Under the pieces are notes generated by a model. The model did no database searches. It was not told the DNA's origin and saw only the letters and a list, made by a program, of their open reading frames with translations. DNA of 64,000 bases from Lobosporangium transversale (taxonomy: Eukaryota; Mortierellomycota; Mortierellomycetes; Mortierellales; Mortierellaceae): positions 434,001 to 498,000 of the forward strand of contig NW_019028999.1 of assembly GCF_002105155.1 (NCBI RefSeq). The letters are read 5' to 3'. Position 1 is the first letter of the stretch; every line of letters starts with the position of its first letter. This document shows positions 1,579 through 11,047 of the stretch, piece after piece. Position numbers and translations under genes: made by a program.

Positions 1579-4500
1579 GACAGTTTGTATTTTCGCCCTT
1601 GTCTTTAATCGAATAGTGACTGTGCAATTAAGTGATATGAATGGTCTTGGTTAGAAAATGTCAAGAGCCAAATACCCTCTGAAAGATATATTGATATCAA
1701 AGCTCTACGAGCTTTCACCAGCATAAAAAAATAATGTAACCACTTCGGCTCCGAATTGAATGCTCAGTCTTTTTCAATCGCATCACTCAATTTCAGCTTC
1801 AGAATTTGAGTTATCCATCCATTTCTCCAAAATGCACTGTCCACGAATGAAAGTTCTTTACCAACTATTTCTAATGAAGAAAGTCAGAATAAGTTCATAC
1901 AGTAAGAAGTGACGATAATCCCAGTCAGTAGGAATATTATGTCGAGTGCCTATGCTATCAAAATGCGCTTTGTGCTAGAGTACGCGAGACTACAGCAAAT
2001 GAGCTTGGCCTAACGAGTAAGGAAGATGATGCCTAAGGTCATCTATCACACATTGCCAATGTTATTGAATGGGGCTTTGTAAGCTTCAATAAGCGTCACA
2101 ACTCACGTGAATACTCTTAACTCACGCAAGCGCAACCGAGATTATACTTGATGCCATGATAGGGAGCCCTCAAGCTCACGCCTACAAAGCGCATTCAGAG
2201 TACTATGAAGGAAGTTAATCAATTTTCAATTATGAAAGGGCCATCCTCATCTTAACCACTGGCATCAACCTTACTGCGCTTTTATTCAGCAAAAGTTATG
2301 AAGAAGACCATTCTATGAAAGATAATTGGATAGCTCGCTATGGGCTCATTAAGGCTGGCATTATAGAAGGGGGAAGACTTTGGCCATTCAAGTTATAGCG
2401 GTTCCTGATATTATGGAGCGTTCGGCAGTGGACCATGCCGCTATTACTCTTATCGCGGTTAGCAGTACCTTTCAGTAACTACCAAAAGGTGGCCCGTTGT
2501 CTACAGTGATGTCCGCAACAATCGATATATAACTGCCTGCAATAAAAAAATCTGAAAAGAAAATTCAGAATACCAAAGAGGAAGCACAAGTGTAAAAGCC
2601 GCTTCATCTTTTACCAATAGTGAAAACTACTATGGTGTACTCCAAAAGTGTGGAGCGGGAGGTGTTTTGATCCTATCCGACCACAGGGGGATTTTTTATG
2701 TCAACCCTCTAATCAAGGTTGACATATTTGATCGATGAGATGTAAGGAAATCTTGCATCATGTTTCAGGGCGATTGTCGATTGCCCAATGGTTTATTTGT
2801 TGCTTTCATTCCTTTCCTTATTTAGGAGACAGCATGCGGTTGATGAAGGAGTTAGAGTCTTTGTCAAACCCATCTGCATAAGCACAGCCCAGAAGATACA
2901 GCACAGACACCAGAGTATCCATGCGAAGTATACTCGCTTATCATACTTATAAAGCTAAACTACCGTCATATACTTTATCGAAATTCAGGTCAGGATCTGG
3001 CGCGGCCCAAAGTCGGTATCGAGATACAGAGCCGTTAGATCTATATAGATAAACCTCGTCGGTCCACGAATTTGCTGTTGGCGGTACGGCCCTTTCGTTA
3101 GAAAATGTCTGTGCCACAGCTAGTTGAATTCTAACGGAATCCGTATACACTTTATAGTACGCGGCCCTAAGTGATATACCTCAATCTCATTAGTGATCAC
3201 ACGGAACCGTCCGGTATTGGGAAGGAGGAGAAAGAGTATAAAATGGACAAGACTTTTTGACTTTGGAAGGAGGCCCAGTGACTTAGTTTCTGAAAGAGTT
3301 ATCCTTAAGGTGAGATCACTTGGAAGGGGAAAAAGCACACTTGCAATTTTCAAGACGCCACAGAAAAACAATAGACCACGCTTCTAATTTAATTGTACAC
3401 GTGTCTCTTGTTGGTATATCCAGGAAGCTTATCCCTTCGTCCGTCACAAGGGCAAATTTGCCATAAATGGGCTTAAAATCCAGCAATCCATGGGCATTGT
3501 CTTGAAATTTTATTTCGATGTCGAAATAAATGACCGAAAACTAAATTGCCATGGAGCTATCCTGGCTTCTTTATTTGTCCAAATAAAAAACTCATGAAGA
3601 CTTTCGCATGACCCTAGCATCCGCTTGGGAGTCCATTGTGTCGTTTATTTATTGACTAGTGTAATAGCAGTGATAATATTCGCCGCCGTAGTCTCGACTT
3701 GAAAGGAGGGCAATCTGAGTTGATTCATTCTACCGCACCATGGAGCTTGACTAACTTGATCTTTTCCTGTACAGCTCGGCAAGACTTGATTTGTCACATC
3801 ATTTACTTGCTCGTCTTCTTGCGTTCCCTTGATGTATCTGGGTTGGTAAACACTGCTAGTAGAGTTTGTTGGGCCTGTTGAAACCAGAGGGAGCCACAGC
3901 AACATATCATACCCAAGGTGATACAAATATCTCTGTTGGAGTGAGTGGTGAACTGTGTGTGGTTCAGATGTAGTGGACATAAACGGCGAAAGAATGCATC
4001 GAAAGGATGTGAGCGGTTATGAGAGCAAGGAAGAAGGGGTTGGTATGCCTGTTCAAGTCTTTGGCAAGAGAGTATGAATAGCAGTTGTGATCACGAGTTG
4101 ATTTCGGTGAGTCCGCATAACAATGGTATAGTTTCTAGACCCTATCTTCCACGTACAGCATTGCATTATTGTTGTTTTCAGACCTGGCACCAATCATGCG
4201 AGGTATTTCTCTTTCTGAGGGTTCCTTGTGTTAAACAGCCAGACAGAAAGCTTAGAAGAGATACAGACACAACGGTGAAAAAAATGTATGTGAGCAAACA
4301 GTTGCTGTGTTTATTTGTTGTCTGCACATGCCTTCTTTCATCGCGGGCTTTTTTTTTATTGTTTCGCAAATCTTGTTTCCTTTTTTGTTCGTCAATCACT
4401 GTGTGCACGAATAAGCAGCTGAAGCATCTCTTTGGTTTCTGTACATGTATAAACACATTTTACATCGTGGCGTCTTTTTTTGTTCAAAACACAAGCGTTT

Positions 4501-5370
4501 TCCATTAGTGCCTCCAAACAAACTTTATTTTGGTGGCCACTCCACAATCACCCCATGGTTATAACAATCTCAAGGAAAGAAACTCAAACGCGTCGGTATT
4601 AATCTCGCTTCTGTATTGCTAGATGCATATGTTTTGGCGATTGGTATCAACTATCAAATTCACACATACACACACCAAACAACCGCCAAAAACCACCACC
4701 CTCGCTTCTGCTCTCCCTCCATCCACAAGGCGCTGCGCAATATCACCATTAACAAGGCACCGTCCAGTAAGAAAGGGTGCTTAGATAACTTTTACTCCAA
4801 GCAATAAGCGCATGCAACTACATCACTCCTATCTCCGCCATTGATGCCGGAACCTGGGAACCAACGAATATCTCTGCTTTAACGCAATAGTACTGAAGCT
4901 GTTGGAGCAAAGAGCGACATCTAAACCCATTCTCTGATAAAAAAGACTTTTTTTTTTCTTTAGTTGTTACCTTTGACAAGGATATAATCACCGAGTCATA
5001 TCTGTCACCTGTTCAAAATTATAAATCTTCTTTTATTCATTAAATTCCTCACAAAGCACAAAGCAAGGGCCAATGCAAACAAAAGAAACTGAAAAAAAAA
5101 AAAAAAATTGTGTAACAAAGGATCGACATCGACACTGTATGCTGTATATGGAGATGATTTTTTCGAATGCTCACTTTGGTATCTCAATGCTATTGTTTCC
5201 AATCTGCCGTTCATGCGAGAGCTTGTATTTATTTGTCGATCTCTGCTATTGACTTGGACAAAACCCCAAGCCAAACAAAGGAACTGAATAAAGATTGATG
5301 TGGCCTGTGAAGCAAAGGATCGATATCAAAACCATATGAGACAATGTTAAAACTCATCATCAATCCAGGG
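1579..5370. other. long AT-rich intergenic region
   Basis: No convincing gene is visible. Two short minus-strand reading frames were inspected. One, at 3150-2947, contains the phrase TDEVYLYRSNGSVSRYRLW and might be a decayed coding fragment. The other, at 3980-3645 (111 codons, starting MSTTSEPHTV), matches no family I recognise. A 14-base A run lies near 5096. The 3' third of the region is upstream DNA for the XPG-Fanzor unit. Confidence 0.4.
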
Positions 5371-5613
5371 TATAAAAAGGGATCATTGTCTTCCTCCTTT
5401 TCCGCTCGCTCACTTCAAAGTTCCATCCCTTTTACCACTGCCACTTGTTCTTGTATCTTTCCTTCAATATTCTTTATCTATTCACTTTGGATCTTTAAAC
5501 CATAAAAAAGCCCATCCTTTTATACCTTTGTCGCTCTTTTTTTTTTTCTTTTTCATTTCTTTTCATCACCATCATTTTTCTTTTTTTCTTTCTCTTTCGC
5601 TTAGATATTGACC
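5371..5613 (+). promoter_or_regulatory. TATA-box promoter and pyrimidine-rich leader of the XPG-Fanzor unit
   Basis: A canonical TATA box (TATAAAAAGG) lies at 5371-5380. About 230 bases of strongly C/T-rich DNA follow, leading to ACCATGG at 5611-5617, a good fungal start context. No comparable promoter or long non-coding gap is visible between the XPG-like and Fanzor-like parts downstream. This is the main reason to think both were expressed from one transcript. The promoter call rests on sequence only. Confidence 0.55.
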
Positions 5614-6649
5614 ATGGGGCTGAAGTCCTTCTTCAAACTGGCTGCGGATCGCGGGGTTTTACCTTCGGAAACTGACGTGGGCACTTCCTTGGCGGCAAAT
5701 CCTGACCATTCTGTTCATGTAGATCTCCTCGGTACGTTCTATTACGACATCCTCCGCAGAGTCGTCCATGCAAAGATGAAAAACGAATCCATCATTGATG
5801 TAGGAAGGTCCCTGGCTCTCGTGATAAAGGAACTTTTCATAACGGACGATCTGACTATACATATTGATGGGGAACCTTGTACTGAGAAAGAAAAGCAAGG
5901 ACAGAACGGCAAGCCATAAGACAAAAAAATATGGATGCTTTGGAGAACGATATGAGCACCTTCGAGAGAAATTCTCGGAGTGGGGTATGGACTCGTCCTC
6001 AAGTCATGAGGCGCATCCAGAAGGGTCTTCGAGAAGTCCACACCCTGAGCGTCCAGGACAAGAATCAGCTGGCAACAGGCCTTAACTCTGTCTTCGATGT
6101 CTGTCTGTGTGCATATGAAGCGGACCCATGCATAGGGTGCCATGATGAGGAGAATGATAGGATCGTGATATCCCAAGACTCTGATTTTTTTGCGTACGAA
6201 TGAGTCTGCTTCCTAGTGCGACCTCTTCCGCACCGTAGACGGAAGTTTGGGGTTTACGATGTAGACAACATTATCCAAGCACTAAGACTGCCATCACACG
6301 CGCATCTGGTGTTATTCTGTGCCATCGCAGGCAATGACTACTCAAGGAACCTCGAGACGTTAGGCCCGGTTAATAATCTTCGATTAATTCGAAACGTTGC
6401 GTGGAACGAGAACTACAATAAAATGCTTCGGGACTACCTAAGGGAAGCTAGTAAGGTGTTGGGAAGGAACGCAGCCTCTGAAGAAGGCCGTTTCAGAGTA
6501 GCTCTCCGCATTTTTACTTCCAACCATCAAACGTCGGCCCAAACGTTACCATTGAACAATGAGTTCGATAACTTCAAGCAGCGTCTACTCAATGGAAAGG
6601 ATCTTCGCCATAGAATGGCTCAGCAAAGACGAGCGCAGCGCCGCAGAAC
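5614..6649 (+). pseudogene. XPG/FEN1-like 5'-flap nuclease reading frame, broken
   Basis: The reading frame begins MGLKSFFKLAADRG, like the N-terminus of FEN1/XPG enzymes, which cut 5' flaps and bubbles with two metal ions. Family motifs appear in the right order. These are VHVDLLGTFYYDILRR (N-region Asp), IHIDGEPCTEKEK (second Asp), an EAD motif in CAYEADPCIG, ISQDSDFFAYE (I-region Asp pair), and LFCAIAGNDYSRN followed by LGPVNNLRLIRN (the GxDY/helix-hairpin-helix entry). So the acidic metal-binding set is still present. Two lesions are visible. The frame changes between about 5886 and 5897 in an A-rich run, and an in-frame TGA lies at 6201-6203. A GTAAGA donor-like site follows at 6650, but the acceptor tried (6710-6711) leads to stops in all three frames. 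The Fanzor reading frame begins about 130 bases further on, same strand. It is either the N-terminal half of a fusion or a separate upstream gene. The nuclease family call is strong; the relation to Fanzor is inferred. Confidence 0.75.
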
Positions 6650-6778
6650 GTAAGAAAGCTCAAGCTATAGTTTTGGCCTTGAAACCATACGTCCCCAATA
6701 CTAATCGTTAGTCCCCTTCTTGGATAATGTAGAGACACACCATCATTCTATATAGCGAAAGGGTCACATAGGAACTAG

Positions 6779-9112
6779 TTCCGGCCCATCTTTTCTGACA
6801 AGGCGAGCATATTGAATGGGCGCACAGTTGATATCAGTAACTGCCGTCAGCACGATAGGCCGGGCCTTAAGCATCCACGTCGGAGAAAGGCAAAAAAGAA
6901 GCAACAGAAAAAACAAAAGCGGAAGCACAAATGCAAGAAGCCTCATAGGGCTAAAAAAGAAGGTGCACCAATTAGGAACTTGAAGGATGCTACGAAGGTT
7001 GATCACAGCTACAGTAGTAAGCACCTTATCAAGGCCTTAACAATTGGGTCCCTTAAGGCCTCCATGGCAAGGAAAGGCGGACTGGACGCAGATGAAAGGG
7101 ATAGTATTGCAAGCCAGATCCGAGGGGCAGTTGTTGTCCTCAACCGACTACGCCGCTATGCATACTGGGCGATTGCCTTGGACATTGAGAGGATCATGCG
7201 GTTACCAGGGGCAGCAAGGTCGAGGAAAAAGGCACTGGACGAGGTCTTGATAGTAATGATTATTCCTTCCGTCTCGCCACCCTTCTTTTAAGTGGTCAAG
7301 GTGGTCCCAATTCAGCTTACGCGAAGGCAAAAAAACAAAGAAAGGCGGTAGAAACGCCCCATTATCTCCTCGCTTATGAACATTTCAAGGCCACCACTGA
7401 ACTTTCCCCAATAAAGGAAATAGACATCACATTGGGGACGTGCAAGGCTTTGATCCCAAAAAGATCTCATTTCCAAGAGCGTCAGAGCTACTAATGGGCC
7501 AAGTACAGACATCATTAAGGCAGCACTACAGGAACGCAATGGTGTAGCTTGTGTAAGGTATTTTCATGCATATTCTGCAATCAAATGCTCTTTATTCAGA
7601 CTCTTTATTTTTTTTTATTTTTTTTTTTTTTTCTAGTTTGATGTCGAGAAAACAAACGAAGATATGAGCGACATTGGGTTTTTTTTGCGGGAGAACAAAA
7701 AAGTGAAAAAATACTCAGACTTTCCTACGTCCCCCTGGTCACCCGGGTATGTGTATCTGTCTGAACACGCCCTAGTTGACATCCTCTGGGCGAACGAAGA
7801 TACCAAGCAGCTGTTGGAGCGTATTCTGCCTCTCAACAATCCTTCCAAGACTGCAATGTTTGAATGTGTACAGGGAACAAAAGGGGTTTTGATTCAGGCT
7901 CTCTTTTGTGACATTGGAGGTGATCGCATGGTTCTTGGATAGAGACAAAGTATCCCTGCAGTCACAGGACAAAGATATAACCCGGTTCAAACTCAAAGGA
8001 ACGATTTCTACCAACGGTCTAGTTCTGAATCTACTTGCCTATGACACAACCCAGACGAAGAGACAGCAGCAGTCTGACATAGATGAAGAAGACTCCAGCC
8101 AAGAACTGGAGCTTTCTCATGGATTTCTCAACACGACGTGTTCAAAGGCAGCCGGTGAAGACCTGACAGATGAAGACTACGCAGACATAAACTGGAAGAG
8201 GAGCTCCAAACTGCTTGAAAACGTTGAGCTCACATTCAACAAACCAGGGCGATGCCCATTCGCAAACACCACAACTATCGTCGGATGCGATCCTGGTATT
8301 GTTAACGCCCTTATGTTTTCCTCCCTGGATCCTCACAACCCTAACTTGCGGCAAACGGTAAAGGTGAGAAGCAGGTTCTTGTACCTCCCCGTCCTCCGCT
8401 TCAATCACCTGTTGAACAAAAGGAAGCGTGAAAAAGGAATGATTGAGGTTGAGAACGTCATCCCTGTGTTTGGAAGGGATACGTATAATGAGTACTTTCA
8501 ATGGATGAACGAGGAGTCTCAGACACAGACAGGATCAACGAATTTGGATGTGCTTCAAGAGTTCTATGAGTCCAGATGGCACCTGAAAAAAAAATGGGAC
8601 CTACGAAAGGCTCAACGAGCTACGTTCGACTACGCGGTACAGCGAGTGTTGAAGATGCTTGGGGATAAAGGAGTACTTGTCGTCGGCCTATGGTCCTTTG
8701 AAAGTAGTAAAGGAGTTCCCAGCAAGCACACTGCTATAACGAGACACCTTGTAACACAGGTATGGCTTTTTTTAAAAAAGTAAGAAAAGCTGGAAAGCCA
8801 AAGAACCCTTGCTAATAAACGACTGCCATTTGAAACGCTTAGATCAAAGCACGAGGACACTTCGCTGTAGGAGCGCACGAATTTTACACCAGCGCCCGCT
8901 GTCCCCGACCCCTCTGCGATAGCTTTTTAGAGACGGTGTACCCTCGCTCTAAATATTGCCGGGCATGTAAGGCATTCTTCGACCGTGACGCAGTAGGGGC
9001 GGAAAACATCGCAAGAATCGGTCTTGCTCAAATTGAGAGGCAAGAGAGACCTGCAAAGTACAGGCTCACGGAAGAGTCGCCTGCTCCGGCTGCAAAGCGC
9101 GCACGATGCTAG
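6779..9112 (+). pseudogene. Fanzor (eukaryotic TnpB-like, RNA-guided nuclease family), frameshifted copy
   Basis: Fanzors are eukaryotic relatives of transposon TnpB that cut DNA guided by an RNA made from the element's 3' end. The reading frame runs through segments 6779-7250 (with a Lys/Arg-rich NLS-like stretch), 7249-7491, 7490-7552, 7637-7925, 7922-8759 and 8843-9112. Two introns splice cleanly in phase 0: 7553-7636 (GTAAGG, T-rich) and 8760-8842 (GTATGG, with GCTAATAA before the acceptor). RuvC-I is VGCDPGIVNALMF. The RuvC-II region is VVGLWSFESSKG followed by RGHFAVGAHEFYTS. The zinc ribbon is CPRPLC and CRAC, and RuvC-III is DRDAVGAENIARIGL. Frame changes near 7250, 7490 and 7923 show that this copy is decayed or mis-assembled. 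The stop is at 9110-9112. Family assignment is firm from motif order; I cannot say whether it is Fanzor1 or a sister clade. Confidence 0.85.
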
Positions 9113-9141
9113 ACACAAGTATTTGGGTGCCGGCACACCCA
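9113..9141 (+). ncRNA. candidate 3' hairpin, possible start of the Fanzor guide RNA region
   Basis: Just after the Fanzor stop, TGGGTG (9124-9129) and CACCCA (9136-9141) can form a six-pair stem around a CCGGCA loop. In known TnpB and Fanzor elements the guide RNA scaffold overlaps the 3' end of the gene and runs into the element's right end, so this is where such a scaffold would be expected. Nothing here proves transcription, and the element boundary was not found. Confidence 0.25.
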
Positions 9142-10776
9142 CAAAAAATTTGTAAGTTCTGTTTATTTTCGTCTCCTGTATCCTCTCTAATCTTTTGCCC
9201 CCTGAATTTCTGGACTAACTTTAAAAACCGTACAATGTTCGAAAAAGGCGGTACCACCCACATGTGCGCTATAGCCTTGCCGTCAACAATCAAGCTTTTA
9301 CTCGCCTTAGCTAGAGTATAGATGCTCATTGATCGAACAAAGAAGAACAGCTTCACAAACTTCTCATATTTGCGTGCGGAACAGAGCACAAGTTATGAGG
9401 TACCCGAGCGGTTTTGGTAAGAAAGGGATCAAGATGCGGTAGCGTCGGTGAGACGTAGAATGGACCAAGCTACGCTCAACTTTCCAATGACAGAATCTGT
9501 TGTTGTCACCAGAGAACGATCCCATTGCTCTAAGTGCCGCAGCATTTCCACAGAGCAGTGTAATACACATAATGCTATAATAATGTCAACCAGTCCAGAT
9601 TTTGCTTGCAATAATCCGAATGTTCCTCTTCAGGTTCTACAATTTGTGACACCCGAAGCATCTCGTGCAGGGTCCACGTCAATATAATTATTTCAAAATG
9701 ATCCACTGCTGCCACTGGACGGGACGATCAGCAATTGATTCCATATATATATTGATCGCCTTGCAATGATGTGATTTATGCATGTCGCGAATGGGACAGT
9801 TTTTTTTTTTTTTTTTTTTTTTTTGGAGTGTCGATGTCCGTCAATTATCTACAGACATAACCTTGAATTGAGAACAAAAAAAAAAAACCACTTCACAGTG
9901 GATGGGGTCACTCCTCCCAAACCCCCTGCTTCCTTCTTTTCCTCCTCTCTTTCTCCTGCTCCTCTTCTTCTACTACCACCACCCCCTCCTCTCTTCTTCC
10001 TCCTCAGCCTCCTTTTCTTCCTCTTCCTCTTCCCGCTCCCTTGTTGAGCCTTAAAGGCCATTCAGTCCTTTGCGTTCCATTCAACATGGCACTGCTCTAG
10101 TCGTGCTGCAACCGTGTTTATTTTAGCTGCAGCAGACAGACAAATTTCTTGAATTTCATGTTGATAAATTTTCAACACATTTGGATATGCTTTCACTCAG
10201 ACCCTCTCGTTGGCTGGTGAAAGGATGTCCCTCAGGCCAATGGCATGTAATACGGGATCAAAAAAAGAAAAGTCGCGTTTCTCTTTCAGACTGGAACACG
10301 TCGAGTCGTTTTTGTCTTGACTTTGCACGGTATAATTTTCTGTATGTTTACTCCCTTCTTTCTCTTTCTCTTATTCCAACCATCTGTCTCTTCTCTTTCC
10401 TTTTATTTCCCTTTTCCTCTTTCCTTGTCTCTCGCTTGAAGTTTTCGCTTACTCCAACCGTAACCATTGTGGAAGCGTTGACCCTGATTGAGCCCGTCTA
10501 TCTTTTCCTCTCCAATCAGCTTATTGTCCCATTCGTGCTTCAAATTTATACTTTCACACAAACACTTGAATTGTCCTTACACCATCTTCCTGTTGCTACA
10601 CACGTAAGTAATGGCCGCTGAGATGCATTTAGAAATGTACTCTTCATTAAAGACTTGGATGTGAAGCATTAATCAAATAATTGAGAGTGTACGGGGGCAT
10701 TCTTTCTGACTTTGGCAATTTCTTTCCTTTTATCCAATGACGGCATATCAATCAATTGCCCGTCTCTTTTTTCTTT

Positions 10777-10808
<32 letters not shown>

Positions 10809-11047
10809 CTTCTTTTTTCTTCCTTTTTTCTTTTTTTGACGACGCGACATCCTCTTTTCGGACCACATCCACAGATTCGTGCGCTATAAGATAGTTCTAA
10901 AAACATCCATCGACTGACATCAAGCAACGATACACTTCAACAGATTCATCTCTTCTATAGCTTCAACTACATCACATCAACGCGCGTGCTCAGTGAAAAT
11001 TAGAATCAGAGTGTTACGAGCAAGCATAACCTCGCCACATCTCATCA
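9142..11047. other. intergenic DNA, pyrimidine-rich, upstream of the PKA regulatory subunit gene
   Basis: No supported gene. The stretch holds a T run at about 9800-9824, a long C/T-rich block at 9911-10040, another at 10350-10450, and a T run at about 10780-10808. The last 300 bases are probably the promoter and leader of the gene starting at 11048. The right end of the Fanzor element, if it survives, should lie in the first few hundred bases. I found no terminal repeat matching the sequence upstream of 5371. Confidence 0.4.

Follow-up and report, generated by a model that had tools for sequence, protein, structure and literature searches.

The window analyzed here is a 64,000-bp stretch of the Lobosporangium transversale genome (C42:434001-498000; C-numbers denote contigs), of which 42.7 Mb in 127 contigs were searched. 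Positions 5614-9112 of its plus strand hold the sequences of two nucleases, first one of XPG/FEN1/EXO1 type and then the RNA-guided nuclease Fanzor. Both lie in a transposon of a family referred to below as family A, and the window copy is a decayed member of this large family, with frame changes and in-frame stops. Comparison with other copies and with gene models from related fungi indicates that XPG and Fanzor are almost certainly parts of a fusion encoded by a single spliced gene. The features of the window copy are as follows.

3430..9234, plus strand: decayed copy of the family-A transposon, 5.8 kb, with boundaries common to other genomic copies
5371..5378, plus strand: TATA-box-like sequence (GGGTATAAAAAGGG begins at 5368), about 240 bp before the ATG; a promoter role is suggested by its sequence
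5614..6649, plus strand: exon 1, XPG/FEN1/EXO1-type nuclease domain, beginning at ATG 5614 (MGLKSFF...)
6650..6732, plus strand: predicted junction intron of 83 nt (GTAAGA...TACTAAT...TGTAG), phase 2, connecting the XPG and Fanzor frames
6733..7541, plus strand: exon 2, coding for a linker, a basic stretch and the N-terminal half of Fanzor
7542..7636, plus strand: predicted intron 2, acceptor TTTCTAG, donor GTGTAG in this copy
7637..8759, plus strand: exon 3, Fanzor with RuvC-I (DPG at 8289-8297)
8760..8842, plus strand: predicted intron 3 (GTATGG...CTTAG)
8843..9112, plus strand: exon 4, alternative catalytic Glu (EFYTSARC), zinc ribbon, RuvC-III (FDRD) and stop TAG
9113..9234, plus strand: non-coding stretch at the right end, better conserved than any other part of the element and a candidate omega RNA scaffold region

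An earlier note on this DNA had described a TATA box, an XPG-like frame with its acidic residues and a Fanzor frame, and all three were found again. The XPG part contains the motifs VDLLG, HIDG, YEAD, QDSDFFAY and GNDY but is broken in this copy by a frame change at about 5886-5919 and an in-frame TGA at 6201-6203; exon 1 is open in 11 other family-A copies. The Fanzor part has DPG at RuvC-I, a Glu six residues ahead of CPRPLC, and CRACKAFFDRD. Its zinc ribbon exceeds the Pfam cut-off (PF07282, 28.7 versus 26.3 bits, 1.5e-06), while the XPG half of the window reaches no Pfam cut-off. Overall, the Fanzor part is interrupted by one TAG, near 6776 in exon 2, and three frame changes, two of them in exon 2 and one near 7900 in exon 3. 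Exon 2 was stop-free in all 10 other copies checked (those of length 814 only), and the donor of intron 2 in the other copies listed was GTATAG or GTATAA.

Evidence for a single spliced gene

The earlier note placed the two frames about 130 bases apart, with no new promoter between them. They do share a strand, but the gap is best explained by an intron and not by intergenic space. Of its two alternatives, a fusion or a two-gene operon-like unit, the former is supported by predicted in-phase splicing and by continuous models in other genera. In family A, the XPG frame ends with CGC AGA AC/GTAAGA, followed by the branch-point-like motif TACTAAT and the acceptor TGTAG/, and the in-phase splice product runs into ...DTPSFYIAKGSHRNQFRPIF, which belongs to the Fanzor frame. 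A second family, B (copies L061-L063, L-numbers denoting fetched genomic stretches), has the XPG end CCC AG/GTAAGC and the spliced product ...QPQPRFYIPKRAKPNRYRPF. In both families, the stop of the XPG frame falls within the GTAAG splice donor, and the phase 2 junction intron occupies the same place; their XPG parts are 31-32% identical. Its length differs by small indels with the frames maintained. The acceptor was placed using an alignment of 31 rows, the window among them: the AG at 6711 was rejected because an in-frame stop follows a few codons on in the window and most of the rows, and the next AG (6732) preserves the frame.

Splicing of the family-B copy L062 in silico, with introns of 83, 86 and 79 nt, yielded a stop-free product of 1209 residues, and a family-A copy on C66 is open over 984 residues. 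The annotated L. transversale model P0001 removes the corresponding junction intron of a family-B copy. Of 13 aligned fused proteins, 12 share a conserved segment (like FYVAxGSxxNQFRPIF) immediately downstream of the junction, the exception being P0006. In families A and B, the Fanzor frame contains no methionine from its upstream stop to this segment, and the first methionine of that frame in L062 lies about 150 residues after it. Since no start codon precedes the segment, it must be translated from the XPG side.

The ratio of nonsynonymous to synonymous substitution rates (dN/dS) was 0.58 among the 11 open family-A XPG copies and 0.67 for exon 2 (10 copies), values consistent with past selection plus decay. 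The corresponding value for family-A exon 3 was discarded as invalid because the six copies of length 1125 hold 4-23 stops.

Recurrence of the pair and its active sites

Searches of the same genome gave at least 152 matches to a Fanzor query and at least 122 to an XPG query, the latter reduced to one row per place, giving 77 XPG places. A zinc ribbon was found downstream on the same strand within 4.5 kb (at 764-3015 bp) for 44 of these places, compared with two upstream and one on the other strand; the zinc-ribbon set comprised 82 matches with E up to 0.01, part of them below the curated cut-off. Divergent XPG places had a zinc ribbon in 5 of 17 cases. The divergent XPG L084, used as a query, gave 99 matches and added 27 places to those above; five of these have a zinc ribbon downstream and none has one upstream or on the opposite strand. 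Viewed from the zinc ribbons, an XPG lies upstream of 49 of the 82, against a chance expectation of about 0.4% per XPG. Counting with the Fanzor query gave a downstream Fanzor match for 55 of the 77 XPG places and an upstream XPG for 55 of 104 Fanzor places. Many of the lone Fanzor or XPG places are decayed fragments. The two parts recur dozens of times with unchanged order and strand, and the pairing is therefore not due to chance. One XPG_I match just over the Pfam cut-off (C117:643640-643861) has no zinc ribbon within 4.5 kb downstream and is possibly a stand-alone XPG relative.

The earlier note named Mucoromycota; L. transversale (Mortierellaceae) sits in Mortierellomycota. Twenty-six relative proteins were collected (P0001-P0026), of which P0001 and P0013 are from L. 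transversale. The first protein search, in which only the 7999 candidates with the largest number of shared words were scored, gave three matches. Fused gene models were found in Podila verticillata (1260 amino acids [aa]) and Benniella (1160 aa) by profile search, and an earlier search yielded two in Mortierella alpina. A search with the RuvC/zinc-ribbon region only retrieved 21 proteins; the 18 named ones belong to Podila, Mortierella, Lobosporangium, Dissophora, Gamsiella and Entomortierella, all of which we take to be Mortierellaceae. A hidden Markov model (HMM) built from six XPG domains, including those of P0002, P0003, P0004 and P0006, detected XPG ahead of Fanzor in 11 of the 21, that is, in all 11 of at least 915 aa, while the 10 without a match are 508-758 aa long. 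Over all 26 proteins, XPG was detected in 15. The models P0002, P0011, P0015 and P0026 start inside the XPG domain, as expected for incomplete models, and P0014 is a predicted protein of 1183 aa from a 4.9-kb contig. The same fusion is thus present, as judged from sequence, in at least three other genera, and the gene models there are continuous XPG-Fanzor proteins. For 13 fused proteins, the XPG tree and the Fanzor tree are correlated (r 0.64, permutation p 0.0002). Pairs such as P0003/P0023 and P0014/P0015 appear in both with good support, while support is poor at several deep nodes. Among viral contigs, 12 stretches matched one short pattern, and none of them encodes a relative.

The DPG motif at RuvC-I, described as a Fanzor feature in passages of PMC10711439, was identified in the window, L062 and C66, as well as in 18 of the 26 proteins by pattern and in P0004 and P0009 by eye; P0007 has DSG, and no match was found in P0005, P0008 and P0026. 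A Glu exactly six residues before the first zinc-ribbon Cys is present in the window (EFYTSARC), L062 (EYYTSAKC) and 21 of the 26 proteins. The five proteins with no match are P0008 and P0022 as well as P0002, P0006 and P0009, whose sequences stop short of this region. The Fanzor pattern given in an excerpt of PMC3627910, D-X(125-275)-[TS][TS]-X-X-C4 zinc ribbon followed by RD, is found in P0019 (D948, TS at 1124, DRD after CQNC) and in L062 (D884, TS at 1108, DRD after CRNC); the first Cys pair of both has the spacing CxxxxC.

On the XPG side, the acidic motifs HxDG, EAD/ESD, DSD and NDY, whose residues are presumably catalytic, are kept in L062, P0004, P0006, P0009, P0014, P0019 and P0023, and in the window across two frames. 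Deviations were YMDG in P0021, DSN for DSD in C66, and one missing motif each in P0003 and P0010; where proteins are without one or more motifs, this is partly due to incomplete models. The family XPG profile matches FEN1, EXO1 and RAD2. Fold comparison detected both an XPG-type fold and a Fanzor fold in one predicted structure; the best fold match of the XPG half was EXO1, with 12-19% identity in the fold matches listed (VIA-align). A related XPG at C13:672k, with a zinc ribbon downstream, is over the XPG_I cut-off (25.9 bits). Since the XPG half is missed by Pfam-based annotation, the architecture is easily overlooked. Together, sequence comparison and structure prediction support that the two nucleases are fused and the fusion is conserved, that both active sites have their catalytic residues, that the two folds are present, and that the gene sits in a transposon.

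Transposon setting and proposed mechanism

The ends of family A are precise across many copies, reading TA/TCCCTT... on the left and ...CAACAGA/TA on the right, and at least 40 matches to each end were found in the genome. In the window, the left end reads TA/TCCCTTCGTCC, and the right end is truncated, with the final 12 bp of other copies (GATCAACAGATA) missing after 9234. TA follows the right end in all 26 cases read and precedes the left end in 13 of 14, although the search pattern for the latter contained TA (two mismatches allowed) and the count left out three of 12 freshly fetched ends that did not match it. For family B, two of the three copies had TA flanks, and the genome gave 33 matches to the right end and at least 41 to the left. 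Its terminal repeat is imperfect, about 16-17 bp including TA (TATAGCCCGTTCCATT and TATAGTCCGTCCCATT), while in family A agreement is limited to the outermost few bases.

Besides the gene, the frame lists for family-B copies L061-L063 and for window positions 4000-11000 showed no frame long enough for a transposase; frames of the left region were not scanned against Pfam, and a transposase of many small exons may have escaped notice. The element is therefore not classed as a member of Tc1/mariner but at most as a passenger. Deletion derivatives without most of the gene (L082, about 0.58 kb; L083, about 2.2 kb) keep both ends, and thus the element can probably be moved in trans. The transposase involved is probably TA-specific (Tc1/mariner-like).

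Three family-A left ends that lack a right end were examined for an autonomous partner of the family. A Tc1-like transposon (DDE_3, HTH_Tnp_Tc3_2) at L081 1762-3368 adjoins a truncated family-A left end; its transposase was rejected as the partner, being enclosed by the Tc1-like element's own pair of inverted repeats, each about 212 bp long. L079 contains a 594-aa open frame, helicase-like by eye, at 2218-3999 (oriented), about 1.1 kb past a family-A left piece, and L080, another of the three, has a further long frame. PF01609 transposases gave four matches over the cut-off in the genome. A family-A element lies exactly at the TA of a family-B right end, end to end, in L070 (C37:47200-47600). 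Family B also carries a decayed Fanzor fragment upstream of XPG on the opposite strand, about 56-61% identical to family A (L061 6901-7278, C61:168400-168777, and the matching place in other copies). ACTA, with AC before the TA, occurs at 8 of 14 family-A left ends counted and might be a target-adjacent motif (TAM) of Fanzor; the TAM of SpuFz1 is CATA according to passages of PMC10432273.

The 122 bp that precede the right end of family A show an identity to the window of 0.99 over aligned columns, compared with 0.928-0.966 in the nine other regions. Either a functional end or a guide-RNA scaffold, for which this stretch is a candidate, would be expected to show such conservation.

As a whole, a single-gene fusion combined with a guided-cut mechanism is in our judgment the best explanation, with a probability somewhat above even. 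A single spliced gene on TA-flanked transposons of Mortierellaceae would produce one protein of about 1,140-1,500 residues, in which an XPG/FEN1/EXO1-type nuclease (residues 1 to about 320) is connected through a basic linker to Fanzor (REC/WED/RuvC/zinc ribbon) at the C-terminus. The conserved right end may supply a guide RNA that brings Fanzor to the empty site remaining after excision, or to further copies of the target, where the RuvC site would cut the R-loop and the tethered XPG site would cut the exposed R-loop flank and/or trim 5' ends. Repair of the break from a copy or chromosome holding the transposon would then keep or spread it, its mobilization being provided in trans, probably by the TA-specific transposase suggested above. 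The mechanism alone, in which an RNA-guided Fanzor cut with XPG processing favors retention of the transposon, is offered more tentatively, its probability being short of even. Marginally more doubtful still is its formulation as a two-blade, self-homing RNA-guided nuclease that radiated into many families within Mortierellaceae, in which a tethered EXO1/FEN1-like 5' nuclease resects or de-flaps the break made by Fanzor and repair from a homologous template restores the transposon.

Type V enzymes open an R-loop, the protospacer-adjacent motif (PAM)-distal flank of which is the 3' R-loop flank. EXO1 degrades 5' ends and so initiates homologous repair. Purified human XPG cut the 3' flank of an R-loop and left the 5' flank largely untouched, according to earlier work mentioned in a passage of PMC7286691. 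Given this 3'-flank cutting and the type V geometry, an XPG-type domain tethered to Fanzor would sit by a natural substrate. A guided cut of the empty donor or target site, followed by processing of its 5' side in favor of repair from the transposon-bearing chromosome, would be the most economical reading.

Several observations weigh against this reading. Of the 15 family-A copies with a complete set of splice sites identified, none has a frame that stays open throughout, and the junction splice is a prediction from sequence and gene models. The flanking TA may belong to the element itself instead of having arisen by duplication. RuvC-I reads EPG in P0003 and DLG in P0021. RNA folding of the right-end stretch was unsupportive (z +1.14 and +0.81). 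Relative placement of the two halves in the structural model is unreliable (predicted template modeling score [pTM] 0.56). XPG_I remained below the Pfam cut-off in seven of seven proteins and in one further protein, the best score among the three of the seven listed being 16.5 of 24.9 bits. Finally, no XPG was found for 33 of the 82 zinc ribbons, and 49 of the 104 Fanzor places are without XPG in the Fanzor-query count. Intact Fanzor relatives without an XPG neighbor would, according to the earlier note, point to chance adjacency; the check left the pairing unrefuted, with these 33 zinc ribbons to be explained.

By position and score, 24 of the 33 look like deletion derivatives of families A and B or contig-edge pieces. 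Those at C42:321k, C2:422k and C96:52k retain the two family-B ends, with 2.7-4.0 kb between them. No XPG was found upstream of the other nine (C106:394247, C62:36027, C45:412207, C104:25890, C87:137312, C53:253381, C40:180579, C106:424898 and C94:53403), which could be Fanzors without XPG or cases where XPG is too divergent or lost. Match spacing indicates that XPG and the N-terminal half of Fanzor have apparently been lost from family-B-like places at C24:584k/582k, C102:114k/116k, C117:744k/747k and C51:1513k/1516k.

Among the alternatives, the XPG domain of one fused protein could serve transposition itself through excision, end trimming, or post-insertion repair of gaps and flaps, with Fanzor tethering it to the transposon ends. 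The gene does lie in a mobile element without a visible transposase frame, and other transposons have acquired repair-type helicases and nucleases (passages of PMC3627910). This is nevertheless unlikely, as L082 and L083 keep the ends without most of the gene, and a cis-encoded protein is thus unneeded for movement.

Production of two proteins from one locus appears improbable. Retention of the phase 2 GTAAG intron always yields a stop (the donor TAA), giving XPG alone, maybe as the main product, while the fusion results from splicing. Eleven family-A copies have an intact XPG and Fanzor is open to the end in none of the 15 spliceable ones, but a shorter frame more often survives decay. The conserved post-junction segment with no methionine ahead of it in families A and B, as well as the fused models elsewhere, also speak against it. 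Equally improbable is an XPG domain acting with little or no catalysis as an adaptor that binds a DNA structure (R-loop or bent junction): its distance from known XPG nucleases, seen in the low identity of the fold matches listed, would allow this, but the acidic residues are kept in the seven proteins named above. A chance adjacency or annotation artifact, which the decayed window copy by itself could not have distinguished, is practically dismissed by the excess of zinc ribbons with XPG upstream over chance, the fusion in at least three other genera and the presence of both folds in one model.

Comparison with known systems

To the question of what Fanzors do for transposons, a natural 5'-nuclease fusion offers a concrete, testable answer: retention or homing through a guided cut plus resection, with two separable active sites. 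Genome editing already seeks to combine guided cutters with resection enzymes, and the fusion may be useful there.

Retention of transposons through RNA-guided cutting of the empty site is an idea developed for TnpB, which to our knowledge lacks an XPG domain. DNA transposons of the Academ superfamily presumably encode an XPG nuclease beside their transposase, although our search gave no confirmation of this, and we know of no Fanzor in them. Compared with the EXO1/FEN1/XPG(Rad2) 5' nucleases, the XPG half described here has 12-19% identity, falls below the XPG_I cut-off, is transposon-borne and is fused to Fanzor. TnpB (IS200/IS605, IS607) shares RuvC/zinc-ribbon ancestry with Fanzor, as stated in passages of PMC10711439. 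Fanzor1 proteins are mostly 600-700 aa long (excerpt of PMC11423790). Unlike Fanzor1 of Parasitella parasitica (PpFz1) and Spizellomyces punctatus (SpuFz1), the proteins found here have about 1,140-1,500 aa and begin with an XPG-type nuclease; the insertion in PpFz1 is a different one, the FRI domain (same excerpt). According to passages of Bao and Jurka 2013 (PMC3627910), Fanzor1 rides Mariner, MuDR, Helitron, Crypton-like and other transposons. Capture by a DNA transposon, sometimes without a transposase, and the TA sites of Mariner-type elements are shared with the families described here; these passages report Fanzor with or without transposases and mention no flap-nuclease fusion.

The term "XPG" is not used in the main text of PMC10432273 or PMC11423790. 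The open-licence literature searched contained no co-mention of Fanzor with XPG or with Mortierella, and an earlier description of the Fanzor-XPG pair elsewhere is possible. The XPG-Fanzor protein is a new architecture within Fanzor and not a new kind of system.

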